Of a stretch of DNA of 64,000 nt, positions 3,378-23,503 are shown piece by piece. Positions within the stretch are counted from its first letter, which is position 1; each line of letters begins with the position of its first letter. The notes under the pieces were generated by a model. It saw only the letters and a program-made list of their open reading frames with translations, ran no database searches and was not told where the DNA came from. This stretch comes from Siphonodentalium dalli (lineage: Eukaryota > Mollusca > Scaphopoda > Gadilida > Siphonodentaliidae). The translations under genes and the position numbers were made by a program. The stretch lies in the NCBI GenBank assembly GCA_032622095.1, contig CP136066.1, forward strand, positions 111,497,319 through 111,561,318, read 5' to 3'.

Positions 3378-3978
3378 CCTTACTCGTATTTAAATTCGCG
3401 CGGTACTATTTTTCGCGCACCCAATGTTGCGTGAATTTAAAACTGAGCGAAAAATAGTACGACTCCGAAGTTTAATCTAAACCACAGTCATATGAAATAC
3501 AAGATGGCTATGTTGCTGAAATTACATATATTATGAACGGTTGAATAGACAATTAGCCTGTACATCATGTATGCATAAATTTACATTCGGCCAACCGCTA
3601 TCAAGACCATTGCTCACAATGGCAAGCGACAAATCATGGTAACATACAGGCCCCTGGGGAAAATCACTAAAATACCAATATAGACTATAGTCTATACGGG
3701 TATTTTAGTAATTTTCCCCAGATGTGTGTGACAGAGACATTGTTGAAATGTTTGTATAAGAAATACTAATATTGCAGGTCGCCACAAAATTATGATGTAT
3801 TTAGCAATGTCTAAGAACCGAAACTTCATCAGTTTCAAGATATACGAAAATATCACGGAAATATTACGAAAATAGTTTTGTCAGTTTTGAATTCGCTCAG
3901 CTAGGTGCGCGAATTTAAAGTACGCGAATTCAAAACTGAGCGAAAAATAGTACAGCGCGAATTTAAATACGAGTAAGG
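3378..3978. mobile_element. 601-bp TA-target element with ~39-bp TIRs
   Basis: The left end (CCTTACTCGTATTTAAATTC...) and the right end (...GAATTTAAATACGAGTAAGG) are inverted repeats of about 39 bp with one mismatch. Both are flanked by TA (3376-3377, 3979-3980), as in Tc1/mariner-type elements. Each terminus also has a subterminal inverted copy of the GAGCGAAAAATAGTAC motif, so each end can fold on itself. A central hairpin is listed separately. There is no transposase frame. Confidence 0.65.
3654..3721. repeat. Long hairpin
   Basis: CTGGGGAAAATCACTAAAAT is matched on the other side by ATTTTAGTAATTTTCCCCAG, giving about 23-bp arms with one mismatch around an AT-rich loop that itself contains GACTATAGTC. 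It lies near the centre of the 3378-3978 element and may be a second, nested foldback sequence. Confidence 0.6.
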
Positions 3979-6730
3979 TATAGGCATATGTACGATCAAT
4001 AATCCTTAGTATTATAAATTAATACTTTCAACGTTTATTTCCCCATATTGACATTCTGTCTTTTTAGAAAGAATAACCGGATCATGTTGCACACGGAATT
4101 GATTATTTGTTTGTCGTTGTTTTTCATTATGAAGATGAACGTATCATCATCACTCATGTTTATGAAATCTATGCTATAATTTTAGCAATATTAGAGTCAG
4201 CGTACGCACTGCATTCTATAATAAAATGTTTTTTTGTCTGTTTCAACTTCATGTTCATCAGACATGTGACAAATTCTGTCTTTTCATGGCGTTTTCGGTT
4301 GCGTGTGTCGACCTCATTGTAAACATATTACTGATTGATGCTGTTGTGAATTTTCGCGATGCATGACGTGCGATATTAATGATGGTGATTGCAAATATTT
4401 TTGCTATCTTTTTCCTGATCATTTGACTAATTTGGAGTCAATCGGACATGTAACGCATATAACGACCCTCTTTTGAAACATGGCTGGTCCATCTGTTCGG
4501 ACGGACATAAATCCATTATTTCCAAATAAACAAGGAATGCTAACTCTATATAAGGGTAATTGTGAACAACGTCTCTATATGTCCTTTTTTAAACACTCAT
4601 GAAGAAGAATCTTATTATATCGGTACCAAATTTAATTCAGATCCGATAACCCATAACTCAGATACCGTTTCGCTTGATCAGTATATCATGGCATAATAAA
4701 GAGCCCCCTTATTAACAGAGACCCACTACCCACGTCTCTGCAGAGCAGTAACAAAGAACCCTTAATTCATTGTTGTCGTATATCATGAATAGACTAACAA
4801 CGAACTTATTGTTACATGCTTTGTGCGATTCTGAAATATGTGGTGATAACGATTAATTCAGCTCTAATATATGACATTTATAACGTACATGCGCAGTATT
4901 CAGATTATGCCATTTTGTTCTTGTATTAAGAAAATGATTTGTTTTTGGGCAAACATAAGTCGAAAATTTCTTTGATTACATAGATTCATTTGACCACCTC
5001 CCTCCCCAATATTATGCTAGCAGCTTGAAATTTATGATTCATCTCACACTAATAATCAGTTCTCTTGAAGTTCACAACTTCTTATTAATTACAGCTGTGA
5101 TCATTATAATAAATACAATATGTCATTGATGCTAGATATGTTTTTTGATCATAGTTACATATTAGCAAGTGGGAGAGGCGGTATTGCCCTCCACCTCCTT
5201 GACAATATATTTTATTCACGTTGAGTATTGGTGGTTTACGTTTATAATAAATACTAGTAGCCCATTTGAATCTGAACTATAGTTTGTTGTCAATGAATAC
5301 ACTTATCCTTTGAATGCCCCTCTTTGCCTTGAATATATACATACTTACGATTCTGAAGAACATAAATATTAATATGAGATCAGAGGGAGAAAGGGAAAGA
5401 AATAGAGAGCAATATTTGAGATAGAAGAAAATTTATGTGGATAATATGATATAGACATATTTTGGAGAGCAGACCTAGCCTCTGAGCGATATCGCACCAC
5501 CGTAACAGTTCACAAAGAATTCGAATTTGACAACGGGAGTGTTTTCTAATGTGATATGGTTGTAAACTAACTTATGTTCAAAACTCGCTTCGCTCGACGA
5601 ACATAAATGATTTAAAAAATAACAACGACTAATGAGTTTATATAATGTTTATTAGGATAAACTCAGGTCTGCCGCAAACCGGCCCGAAATAACGGTTATG
5701 AAAAATAACAATAACAGTATACGAATTACCCTGCAACGGTGTCAGCCATGTTTTCAATGATCAGCTATTTGAAGGATTGAATGTTAGATGAGAAACGATA
5801 CATCTCTGACCGAAAATAGCTGTCGCTTCATGGGTCGGAGGGGATGGGCTTTAATCTGAGCGTACAATGGCAAGACTATGCTGTCTTGGCCATGCATGTG
5901 GATTCGGGTGATTGATTAGATCCGTGAATCATGCGATGAATAGGTTCTGAGCTGATACTCGCTGTACACTGATTGATCTGGCCTGATCTATCTGACCGAC
6001 GGAGCGTACATCTATAAACCCATTTCATGCCAAATCTCAATCGTAGTTGCACTTCATTAAATAAATGCATTGTTGCATATCGTTCGATTTGATTTGGTTA
6101 CTATGCGCGGGTGTGGTCATTTGCCCAACACCAACTGAATTTATTAGGTCACTTCAAATCTTGTTTCCGACAATGTCCTCAACCCATGGACCCATCGCTG
6201 CTCAACCTAAGGGTACGTTCATACATTGACTAGTTTGCAAGACACTCTTTTGCGGACATTTCGGCATAGAAAGCTACAATATGCAAGAAACCGAGAATAT
6301 ATCCTTATACCACAGCTAAATACACGAGAAGTTAAAAAAAAAACTACGTAGTTCCACTAGTATAAGCGATACTATCGAAACTTGCATGTAAACAGCATGT
6401 AAGTAACTCGCAAAATTGAATCATACAGGTATTTTACGGCAATGTGTTAGTAGCACCGTTTAAATACAGGTCGAACTACCGAAATTGTACTGCTCATGTC
6501 GTTAGCTTTGGTAAACATGCGTTTTATATGCATGTTGCCGTTCACATTCTGGAAACATATAGGGTTGTCTATGAGAAAATGCCTGAAAGAATGCAATACG
6601 ACCTATAAGGCTTATAAACAGGCTTGTTTTCTATGATAACATGTACCGATTTTACTTCAGCCGTACAAATTAATACATGGAATGAGACGTGACACAAGAG
6701 ACACTACCTCATCTAATATTGAATGTTATA
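3979..6730. other. Intergenic sequence, no gene seen
   Basis: No exon or complete repeat unit is supported. A purine-rich stretch lies at about 5380-5425. The segment at about 4330-4400 (TTTTCGCGATGC, then GATGGTGATTGCAAATATTTT) resembles 26780-26850, so it is a low-copy dispersed repeat. Confidence 0.5.
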
Positions 6731-17450: not shown

Positions 17451-18322
17451 ACAGCTGTGTTCTAATATTCTCTGTTGACTTGAAATGAAGCCTTCAAATA
17501 TTTTTTTCACCCTCCTGATAGGTGATAACATTGATGAAATTCACTATAAACTAATGTTGAAAGGGGGTATGTAGGTGTCTCTCTGTGAACGGAAACAAAT
17601 TGCATATGCAATAATTGTCTTTGGTCGAGATATGTACACAAAATATGGTTATTTTCTGGTTATTTCTCTATCATCTATTATGCATGCAAATATGTCACTA
17701 TGATGCTTGCTATGTTGTTGCTATGAATGAATGGTGTTGGGGTGTGATTGTGACCGATAGCTCTTCTGAGCTGTCAACATGGTTATTTAAGAGTTGTTAA
17801 GAATAATGTCAATTATCACAGGTTTATCATATTTTAATAAAGACTAGATTCTGGTAGACTAGACAAACAATTTCCTGTAACATTCAATGGCATTCAGTTT
17901 CATTACACGTCAAGAGTGAAAACGTTGTCTTTAATATGTATATATCTGCATACATCAGTGCATATATGCAGACCGGTACAACTGTAATGACTTTGCAATA
18001 GCACAGCCAGACGGCCAGTTGATGTTACCGATTCGTATACGAAGAGATGGGGTTACATTTGGAATTGCACTACTTTGTGGTGGTGTGATTGGACAAGATC
18101 CCTTAACTTAAGCACGCAAAAACATGCAATTGAAACCCAAAGGTAACCCATTTTCTCGAACTTTGAATAAGTAACTTTCAACATTTGGTGCTATTGTAAG
18201 ATTATGCCAGGACAAGAGTGTACACGTGTAGTATATATATTTATAGAAATAATTAGGTTGATCAAAATTGTTAATCATATCAAAAGAACACGAAACCAAC
18301 CATTTGTTTCATAGCAGATATT
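17451..18322. other. Intergenic sequence, no gene seen
   Basis: No exon, tandem repeat or element boundary was recognised between the family B MITE and the Mutator-like element. Confidence 0.5.
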
Positions 18323-18865
18323 ACTCTAGTAGCTCATGGTGGTTTTGTATGCACTTGTATGTCCAGAGCAAAACTCTTCATGAATCCACTAATTGAAGGT
18401 ACACAAACAATATTTGGTTGGTAACACATTTCCCATTGACGGCGAAATGGGTCAAATGGCCACGCCCCTTTTTGCGCGAAGTACTACCACCCGTCGTGAC
18501 TATATCTCCAGAACCGTTGGACATAGGGGGTCGTGTGACCACTCAAAATGTGCGGAATGGCCACATTATTGGGGGTCAGTAATACATTTTCATATCCAAA
18601 AGTCAATGGTTTTTAAGATAATTGCCAAAAACCAAAAAAATTTTGGGCTTCAGCACTTTTATCTCAAAGCTGAGCCCCCAATTAGAATTTTATTTATCTA
18701 TATCCATCGGTGCCACATATAGGTATAATTTCTGTACCATTATCGGATGGGATTGACCTTCAAGGAGCTTTTGACCCTGAAAATCCACATTATGGGGGGT
18801 CAGTAATACATTTTCATATCCAAAAGTCAATGTTTTTTAAGATAATTGCCAAAAACCGATTTCAG

Positions 18866-19072
18866 CATGTAATGCACCACAAGTATACAATACCACAAGG
18901 ACACTTTTTAAAAGAACTATCCACATTCTCTGATCAACTTAAGAGCACAATTGACCACACACAATGGGATTAGCTGGAAATTGCTGCTGAGGATGTGTTG
19001 ACCCCGACACACAACATGAGCTCTTCCCGACTGAACATGCCTTGGAAACTGGTGTGCTTTACCAAAAATCAG
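18866..19072 (+). pseudogene. Exon-like open frame with one internal stop
   Basis: A 69-codon frame bounded on the left by TTTCAG and on the right by CAG followed by GTAACA, so acceptor and donor both fall on codon boundaries. It is broken only by a TAG at codon 36 (18971-18973). The residues look protein-like (for example DHTQWD before the stop and SSSRLNMPWKLVCFTKNQ at the end), but no family is recognised. It lies just inside the left TIR of the Mutator-like element and may be a decayed transposase exon or a captured host exon. Confidence 0.25.
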
Positions 19073-20650
19073 GTAACAATTGTGCTCTAATCAACAGAAA
19101 TGTACAGATTGAACAAAACAGGTTTTCAAAATTTGTTATCAACATTTAACAGACGATCTGATTTAAGTGACCAAGCAATGAAAAATGCTAAACACTTTTA
19201 CTAAATGGAATGACCAGCTGTTTGCTTCATGCAGCAGCCACATGTTGCGATCTTAAAATGGGTATTGCATCTGGGCATAGTAAAAACATGTTGTAATCAG
19301 ATGAGAGATGACCATAAATACCAGTATATATTTCAGAAGTAATCAATTCTTCCAAAAGGACACCTCATCTCACAAAAAGTTTTAGGAAATGATGGAATCA
19401 TCACTATTCAATCAATAGTAGAATGAGCATTTGTCGGTCCCACATTAGTTTTCATTGGCCATGATAGTTTCAGGTTGGAGAAGATGAGGGTGTATAATTT
19501 CACTAACATAATTCTTCATAATAGCTAATAGCCCTCATAACTTACCATGTTAAAGATATTTTCATTTTCAATACCACCCCAGGTTAAGTGGTCCTGCTAA
19601 TTTTATATTTTGCTGATGGGTACTGCTGGATTGCTATGATCGATGTTTGTAGGTCAATGTGATTCTGTTAAGAAATAGTACCATCATTTTACCTAAAGTT
19701 GTTTCTTTTTGCATTGTTTGGCTAATCCGAGCAATTTGTGCAAAAGTCAGTGTCTGTGTGAAACATTCAAGAACATATATACTTCAAAATATTTAATGTG
19801 TACGCTGATGTTTGGTAAACAACAGGAATAGTCATCTCAATTATGGCCAGTTTGTAAAAACCAGCACCCATTATTAAAATATTTCACAATATACATGTTT
19901 TTTAATGTACACTACACATAGTGGCTTATCCTTGATTTGTTCAGATCGCTTTGTTCTACCTGACTATCATACCAAATTTATTAGTATCACCACTAAACTT
20001 GGGATGAATACTGCCAAATGAATATATTGTGATATATAGGGTAATGGAAAAATAATGGTTGAGTCTTTTCTAAATATAATTCTAGTAAAACCTACACAAT
20101 ACCGTCTTGGTCTGATAAGACTCAGAGTCATGTTTATTTAGGAGTATAGACATGAAGTCCACCAGTCTCATGAAAATTAAATGGGCTCTGCACTAGTAAC
20201 ATCTGGGCTCCTGGGATCCATTAATATTTACAAATGCAACACAAATGAAAAACACATAGTAACTTTCCTCAAACACAGATTATAACCTGACAATCATTGT
20301 GTTATAATCAGTGTACATATACATGTTTATGTAGGCATGACCATATCATGTTTTTGAAATACTGCAGAGTGCAGACCATAAATTTCACTAGATTATACAT
20401 GTAGTTACTGCATGTACATCACACACATAAGGCGACTGACACACATACACGTACCTGCAGAGTTCACAATATTTGACATGTAAAGTATATATATATATAT
20501 CTCCTGTGCCTATAACATCAAACCGAACGGTTTACAGTACTTTTACTGACATTTTTGGAGTGGCACATATACATACATAAAAAATAAAAATCAATTTAAA
20601 GGGACGAAATGAAAAATAAATTTGTGCAACTATAATTGAGATCTATATTA

Positions 20651-20712
20651 CATTACAACATCCACAAATCTACAAAATCTACAACATCCACAAATCTACA
20701 AAATCTACAAAA
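20651..20712. repeat. Short tandem duplication
   Basis: AACATCCACAAATCTACAAA with the following ATCTAC is present twice head to tail inside the Mutator-like element. It has no visible function. Confidence 0.6.
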
Positions 20713-21542
20713 ACATCTGACTATCATAGTCATTGGTAATGTGATAATTTTTCCTTGATAAGTTGAAACATGAGGGAGGATTGCATAGCATGCATGGCTA
20801 CCTGCAGAATGTAGATTTGTATGTATTTTTATCTGCATATCAACTGATGCTTGTATTTTTCTTCTAACTCACTCTGAGCTCACAACGCAACAGGATTGCA
20901 TTCGGAATCCACAAAGCTAGACACTTTAGAATCAAGCTTGCCAAATAAATTTCCATGAACCTCACATGAACTCACTCAGTTGAACACAAGGAACGATAAT
21001 CATTGTCAAGTTGGAAAATATTCTGTATGTATGGAAGCCCTATATTTTTAATGTGTGGATTTATTATAACTGGACTAAAGCCCTTATAAAATAATCTGAA
21101 GGATTATTTTAGTCTTTATTACTGGATATCACACCAATAATCAATAGACATGTATTTGTTAGTTTTGAACAGGACAATATATTTTAATATTACTGCAACT
21201 GCATCTTTCTTATGACTTATTTTCTTACAAACTCCCAAATTTGAACCAGAAACAATTTAGGGCAAATATACGGGTATATCCTGTCTACCCGGCAGGCAGA
21301 GATTAACGACTTGGCCGGCGGAGATTATAGTCCATATCAAAACACATGCGGTCCAGTGTTGTCACAGTCCATAACTGTTGGTGGTGAATAACGTTTAATA
21401 GCGTGAGCCACATTCAGTTTATTTATTTTACACGTTTTATTATTTGTTTGTAAAGATGTATTATGAATTATTATCAGTGTTTTAAGTTGAGTTCACTACT
21501 GAATATATATACTGTTAGATTCCCTGGTCTGACATAAACACG

Positions 21543-21797
21543 ATGGCAAGCACACAAGTGAACGTAAATTATATTCCAAATACTAGAGGTGGAAAGTATC
21601 TGGTATATGATGACTACAAATTCTCCGTTAAATCAAGGAGAAATGATCGAATTCATTGGCGATGTTGTAAGAAAGACTGCCGTGCAACCACCAACACTGA
21701 GAACGATATGGTGATATCCAACAGCGGCAACCATAATCACGAACCTGATTTCAACCAAGTATTTTCTACGTGTACATATACATATATCAGGATATAA
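21543..21797 (+). CDS. FLYWCH-type zinc-finger protein, N-terminal exon
   Basis: The frame starts at ATGG after a CAC context and reads 84 codons. Residues about 12-69 match the FLYWCH finger: a GGKYLVYDDYKF segment (hydrophobic core), W39-x-C41, C41-x4-C46, and H64-x-H66 in GNHNHEPD, giving C-x4-C-x17-H-x-H. FLYWCH fingers bind DNA or proteins and are close relatives of WRKY/GCM1 fingers; they often precede MULE transposase domains. Here the finger lies near the right end of a 4.5-kb long-TIR element. A possible donor (CCAAGTATTT, GT at 21759) follows HEPDFNQ, so residues after about 72 may be intron read-through. No transposase domain follows within the element. The domain call is firm; its role (transposase DNA-binding module or captured gene) is inferred. 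Confidence 0.75.
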   Translation: MASTQVNVNYIPNTRGGKYLVYDDYKFSVKSRRNDRIHWRCCKKDCRATTNTENDMVISNSGNHNHEPDFNQVFSTCTYTYIRI

Positions 21798-22896
21798 ATA
21801 TAGGCGATCATGCCAGACTAGCCATTATTTGTTCTAAAATAATGTACGTGTTAGGGAAATTGTAGAACCTTTATACAAAATGGTGATGCAGCCAATCAAA
21901 ATTGATGTGGGACTGATAAAGACGCAACCTGCTCGACTACCGAATCATACTGATTGATCAAATTGTAGTAACTCAACATCACTAAACCTGCTTGTGAGCT
22001 GAGTATAATTCAATTCAACATTAGAATACCATAAAAACACCCTGTTCTCCCATAAGTTTAAAGAAAATAACACATTGAACTCATTTACATGTATATTGCT
22101 AATGTGATACATGTATATGTCATTCCATTTATAACCATTTTGGCAACCATCTCACATCAAAGGCCATGAAATCTAGATAACAAAAGATGAACTACATTCA
22201 AATTATATCACCAGGTAACCTTTTTGTAGGAGTTTTAGGTTACTGATCAAATACCCTGTAATTGATTATTTCCTCAACATCTTTGTTATTGGGAAAATGT
22301 CTGTTTTTCATTCTACGACCAATATATTCCATCCAAAAACCTTATTTTCAGGGTCAAGAGCTCCCTGAAGGTCAAATCCCATCCGATAATGGTACAGAAA
22401 ATATCAGAAATGATACCTGTATGTGGCACCGATGGATATAGGTCAATAAAATTATAATTGGGGGCTCAACTTTGAGATAAAAGTGCTGAAGCCCAAAATT
22501 GGGGTTCAGGCCCTCAAAAATGGATTTTTTTTTGGTTTTTGGCAATTATCTTAAAAACCATTGAATTTTGGATATGAAAATGTATTACTGGCCCCCCATA
22601 ATGTGGCCATTCCGCACATTTTGAGTGGTCACACGACCCCCTATGTCCAACGGTTCTGGAGATATAGTCACGACGGGTGGTAGTACTTCGCGCAAAAAGG
22701 GGCGTGGCCATTTGACCGTCAATGGGAAATGTGTTACCAACCAAATATTGTTTGTGTACCTTCAATTAGTGGATTCATGAAGAGTTTTGCTCTGGACATA
22801 CAAGTGCATACAAAACCACCATGAGCTACTCTAGTATATAGAGTTATTGTAAATCTTGTTCAGTGTCTTGGGTTTTTTTTTTGTATATATATATTA

Positions 22897-23503
22897 TACT
22901 AGAAGGTGACCCGACTTCGTCCGGGCTTTGACCTTGAATTGTCCATTTTGAAGGTCAAGGTCAAATGGGGTCACGATTTTACCAGTCCAAAAACACTGCC
23001 CGGACAAAAGTACCAGACAAACGTGCCCGTCGAAATCCATCCGGTTTTACCCGATTTGACCTTGAATTGATCATTTTAAAGGTCAAGGTCTGGTCGGGGT
23101 CACGATTTGACCCGTCCAAAACACCCAGTGGACAAAAGTAACCCCACGTATAAAATTTCGTCGAAATCCCATCAAAATTGGCGATTTGACCTTGAAGTTA
23201 CCCGATTTCAAGGTCAAGGTCACGTCGCACGGGCAAATGAATATGCTTATGAGACTCGCCATAAGAAAGTACCCCCACATACCAAGTTTCATCGAAATCC
23301 CGTGATATTCGGGCGTTTGACCTTGAAATGACCCGATTTCAAGGTCAAGGTCATGTCGCACGGACAAATTAATATGCCTATGTTCGTCCCCGGCCGAAAA
23401 TACCCCCACATACCAAGTTTCATCGAAATCGGGTCGGCCGTTTTCGAGTTCATCGCGAACACACAGACAGACAGACAGATCTTCCAAAATATATAATAGA
23501 TAA
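22897..23503. repeat. TGACCTTGA-rich dispersed repeat, copy A
   Basis: It starts ACTAGAAGGTGACCCGACTT and ends with CACACAGACAGACAGACAGA and an AT-rich ATATAATAGATA. It contains four ~130-bp internal units, each with TTGACCTTGAA, a short gap and AAGGTCAAGGTC (near 22929-22957, 23058-23085, 23188-23222 and 23317-23350), and phrases such as CCAAGTTTCATCGAAATC. Similar GACAGACAG-tailed repeats are widespread in invertebrate genomes. The transposon class is unresolved. The long minus-strand frame across it (23508-23083) is a by-product of the repeat units. Confidence 0.6.

Follow-up and report, generated by a model that had tools for sequence, protein, structure and literature searches.

We analyzed a 64,000-nucleotide stretch of the genome of the scaphopod Siphonodentalium dalli (contig CP136066.1, positions 111,497,319 to 111,561,318), hereafter called the window, in which a sequence-only reading had proposed a Mutator-like element with a FLYWCH finger. 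The locus holds a DNA transposon with long terminal inverted repeats (TIRs), here named X, which carries within it a short piece of a second, unrelated transposon (Table 1). The inverted arms of ~450-480 bp described in that reading were borne out, as a gapped alignment of nt 1-463 of the 5' arm with nt 2-494 of the 3' arm gave 88% identity, and the arms were complementary over stretches of 191 nt (98%), 129 nt (97%) and 96 nt (94%). Arms of this length (463/493 bp) are in themselves not diagnostic of Mutator-like elements. The termini of X are TACT..AGTA. A 73-bp word occurs in two direct copies near the left TIR (18561-18633 and 18785-18857) and in one inverted copy in the right arm (22534-22606). 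Just outside X, at 23135-23430, units of 131 bp (TTGACCTTGAA...TCAAGGTCAA) are repeated in tandem, and related units lie at 22927-23090.

Table 1. Features of the composite element, in window coordinates.
Feature	Position	Strand	Length	Remarks
X, the outer non-autonomous DNA transposon with long TIRs	18322..22836	+	4515 bp	nested insert included
Left TIR of X	18322..18784	+	~463 bp	terminus TACTCTAGTAGCTCATGG
Right TIR of X	22343..22836	-	~493 bp	terminus (reverse complement) TACTAGAGTAGCTCATGG
Left target-site duplication of X	18319..18321		3 bp	TAT; identical flanks in 20 of 21 copies and an empty site
Right target-site duplication of X	22837..22839		3 bp	TAT; identical flanks in 20 of 21 copies
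Nested insertion, nt 1-490 of a FLYWCH-MULE transposon, 3'-truncated	21272..21761	+	490 bp	starts exactly at the MULE 5' terminus GGGTATATCC
Filler joining the truncated 3' side of the nested MULE to X	21762..21764	+	3 bp	TTT; 1 bp of X lost; sibling site AAATATAC/ATCTACGTG compared with the window copy
ORF, MULE exon 1 with the FLYWCH finger	21543..21797	+	84 aa	finger at residues 10-66; ~12 terminal codons are filler and X sequence

The open reading frames of the long-armed element are short. When ten ORFs of the region were compared with Pfam, the only domain found was the FLYWCH finger of the 84-aa ORF (PF04500, E = 5.9e-12), with no transposase, so that both the domain call and the remark that no transposase is visible stood up in the frames scanned.

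We searched the whole host genome (2.23 Gb, 9 contigs) with the 4.5-kb element as query and found dozens of coterminal X copies at 93-99% identity, most of them 4.03-4.06 kb long. Their mean pairwise divergence was 0.8%, indicating that the family is young. Exact X termini numbered 363 in the TACTCTAGTAGC form and 201 in the TACTAGAGTAGC form genome-wide, and the family comprises hundreds of copies. Intact end pairs, matched on C1 and C2, amounted to 49 with a median length of 4040 bp; 41 of them spanned at most 4.6 kb and the other 8 more than 5 kb. Copies sharing the same arms thus exist; the siblings scored lacked the FLYWCH segment, and no MULE sequence was found in X. The siblings matched positions 1-2941 and 3435-4497 of the query head to tail, with the intervening segment missing. 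By count from the whole-genome match table, ~33 siblings have this uninterrupted site, and 16 aligned base by base read ...GGGCAAATATACATCTACGTG... where the window copy has 493 bp.

Target sites and termini of X

Identical ACTCTAGT words lie just outside positions 18331 and 22827, which had been taken as the ends of the element, and had been read as a target duplication of 8 bp, possibly 10 bp. The comparison of siblings overturned both points. The 10-mer TACTCTAGTA (its complement if the copy is reversed) stood at both edges of nearly every X copy, including all 21 that were scored for target-site duplications; in one copy (L005), it had a single base change at one edge. Because this 10-mer is nearly palindromic (TACT-CT-AGTA), the flank looks like a direct repeat when a single copy is considered. 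Its presence at every insertion means that the ACTCTAGT flank is part of X's own end (TACTCTAGTA...) and not target DNA. Beyond TACTCTAGTA, the 3-bp flanks were identical in 20 of the 21 copies and a longer match (4-8 bp) was found in none, whereas shuffled flank pairings yielded 2.2 matches on average and never more than 9. The duplicated trinucleotides varied among insertions (TAT, ATG, CTT, TGA, AGG, CAA). One X copy (L011) sits within a satellite array, and its flanks, joined after removal of one ATG, aligned without a gap at the junction with other repeats of the array, which thus represent the empty site, with one ATG only; TACTCTAGTA was absent from all of these aligned empty sites. With TACTCTAGTA internal and TAT duplications outside it, the ends of X are those given in Table 1.

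The lone copy of the 21 with unmatched 3-bp flanks (L014, CAT/AGT) has flanks resembling a repeat in another locus (L054), with ~45 bp missing at the junction. This arrangement suggests that a deletion may have accompanied the insertion.

An invariant, near-palindromic end can therefore mimic a target duplication in a single copy, just as a nested fragment can pass for cargo; comparing siblings and empty sites resolves the false duplication and the false cargo alike.

The FLYWCH-MULE donor family

The 493-bp difference was also searched on its own. At least 39 other places in the genome contain 490 bp of the segment at 98-99% identity and continue into different sequence, and the flanks that were read at these copies were unrelated to X. 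Every family copy read starts at the same base, GGGTATATCCTGTC, as does the window fragment, and the family members also share one 3' terminus, ...GGGTGAACAGGACGACCCC, which as reverse complement is similar to the 5' terminus over ~24 bp. The family thus defined comprises ~125 copies of 1-2.5 kb with short inverted ends of ~24 bp (exact termini genome-wide: 125 for the 5' end and 127 for the 3' end). Exact 8-bp duplications flanked 19 of 22 copies, and many copies have internal deletions. In the longer ones, a second exon downstream of the FLYWCH exon (PF04500) encodes a MULE transposase domain of the DDE type (PF10551, E = 1.5e-15). Two copies of 2534 bp (L058, GACGAAAT) and 2312 bp (L059, GCCTACGC) run from terminus to terminus between exact 8-bp duplications; as their first-exon frames are both disrupted, we do not claim that they are active. 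In L058, a tandem insertion rich in GATGATG splits the FLYWCH exon at element nt ~316-534. Four other copies (L025, L026, L035 and L036, C7:136.09-136.19 Mb) have common flanks and lie ~15 kb and 89 kb apart, indicating that their locus was duplicated after the MULE had inserted.

FLYWCH and a MULE transposase are combined in the Phantom elements, such as Tm1-A of Meloidogyne (PMC3169594). Judged by its FLYWCH and MULE layout and its 8-bp duplications, the donor family is a putative Phantom-type MULE. Like Phantom-type MULEs, the donor has an N-terminal FLYWCH exon with PF10551 downstream, 8-bp duplications and internally deleted non-autonomous copies; unlike them, it has shorter TIRs (~24 bp) and no tandem arrays. 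FLYWCH fingers had been presented as companions of MULE transposases; this is true of the family that supplied the inserted piece, but the link does not extend to the surrounding long-armed element.

The window fragment differs from the consensus of 29 MULE copies at only 3 of 490 positions, indicating a recent nesting event. It breaks off at MULE nt 490, within exon 1, so that the 3' half of the element, the transposase and the 3' end are missing. Since the 3' end and a second 8-bp duplication are absent, the insertion is not demonstrable by a duplication at this site.

Affinity of X

The description of the long-armed element as Mutator-like did not survive. MULE target duplications measure 8-11 bp (PMC6446971), whereas those of X measure 3 bp, and by this test X is not a MULE. 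Duplications of 3 bp are made by EnSpm/CACTA and Harbinger (PMC12730594) and by Zator (PMC10045372). Non-autonomous elements of all three groups also resemble X in having TIRs and no transposase. The termini of EnSpm/CACTA elements follow the CAC..GTG rule (PMC12730594), from which X departs with its TACT..AGTA ends, although its duplication length fits. Transposase_21 (PF02992) matches of EnSpm type do occur in the genome, with long open frames, but none was located near X ends among the ends listed, which cover part of the genome. Ten of these matches share one score and a 909-aa frame and probably form a young EnSpm family of more than 7 kb; two EnSpm copies (L056 and L057) were too long for their termini to be reached. 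Harbinger elements prefer TWA-like target duplications, whereas the 3-bp duplications of X are not restricted to TWA. For Zator, which shares the duplication length with X, a search for its ISAzo13-like transposase with PF07592 gave no match in this genome and none in the control genomes either. We found no citable figure in the literature for the duplication length of Academ.

An autonomous X was looked for among the 8 end pairs exceeding 5 kb on C1 and C2. Four were read whole (L051 to L054) and a 17.2-kb pair (L055) in part, the pairs at C1:84657749, C1:233965748 and C2:197917850 being left unread. All those read proved to be X with other repeats inserted, the 1.8-kb extra segment of L051 being another high-copy repeat, and no autonomous X was found among them. 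Divergent families sharing the terminal 18 bp of X were not found either, with just 6 scattered matches. As no autonomous partner was found, no superfamily can be assigned, and X is best regarded as a non-autonomous element with TIRs.

In the 17.2-kb pair, an X copy is split by ~13 kb of other DNA between X ends at C1:128845661 and 128862860. The part read (G000:C1:128850000-128859000) contains a 583-aa frame that begins like a zinc finger and includes a P-loop motif (GPTSCGKT), as well as a partial second copy on the opposite strand. This inner DNA may represent an element with long TIRs that encodes a packaging-type ATPase.

Origin of the composite

The composite almost certainly consists of two independent DNA transposons, a piece of a FLYWCH-MULE nested inside the non-coding, long-TIR element X. 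The 3-bp duplication and empty sites of X, the exact 5' terminus of the MULE fragment, the 8-bp duplications flanking members of its family and the joint occurrence of FLYWCH and MULE exons within single elements were all observed directly. Since no autonomous X was found, we infer the source of its transposase, which would have been supplied in trans from elsewhere when X inserted at a TAT site. A FLYWCH-MULE would later have inserted into this single X copy, an order of events that rests on the siblings scored. Its 3' part and the second duplication would then have been lost, either through a filler-joined deletion or through aborted gap repair after excision, leaving behind the MULE 5' terminus, promoter-side sequence and the FLYWCH exon.

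The long TIRs, the FLYWCH domain and the identical ACTCTAGT words outside the ends first quoted had favored another account, in which a decayed or non-autonomous MULE carries the finger as its own gene content and ACTCTAGT is its 8-10-bp target duplication. Against it, ACTCTAGT is constant at all insertions, 3-bp duplications lie outside it and the empty site is devoid of the word, while the siblings have no FLYWCH and the first base of the FLYWCH segment is the terminal base of another family. This account, to which we assign a next to negligible probability, is refuted by the empty sites together with the length of the duplication. The proposal of a decayed autonomous MULE falls with it, as the FLYWCH exon is missing from the siblings and came as a 3'-truncated nested insertion. 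It is also highly improbable that X belongs to an unusual MULE lineage making 3-bp duplications, with both layers of the composite Mutator-like. TIRs of several hundred bp are indeed common in MULEs (PMC6446971), but the same source gives duplications of 8-11 bp where X has exactly 3, and the termini of X are unlike those of the MULE family found in the genome.

Uptake of a host- or MULE-gene fragment by X during gap repair, in the fashion of Pack-MULEs, would account for a fragment that is present in one copy, ends within an exon and has filler at its 3' junction. Yet the 5' breakpoint coincides with base 1 of the MULE, which is expected of transposition and rare for random capture, and X is not a MULE. 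Transposition is thus favored by the exact start of the fragment, and we regard such transduplication as very unlikely. The window composite does resemble Pack-MULEs in having a coding fragment between long inverted ends; it differs from them in that these inverted ends do not belong to a MULE, and what lies between them is the end of a nested transposon instead of a captured host gene. Compared with Phantom-type MULEs, the window copy keeps 490 bp, without transposase or 3' terminus.

Under the nested-transposon reading, the 4.5-kb sequence represents ordinary nested transposons and not a new FLYWCH-only Mutator element. The idea that the element mobilizes a FLYWCH module found no support, as the segment had not spread with X in the copies examined. 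We likewise consider it very doubtful that the composite still moves as a unit with the MULE promoter-side region and the 84-residue FLYWCH-only ORF, the protein of which might bind MULE ends as a KP-repressor-like competitor or seed a host FLYWCH gene. Two young transposon families are documented by the locus in one large genome, the FLYWCH-MULE family and the family with 3-bp duplications.
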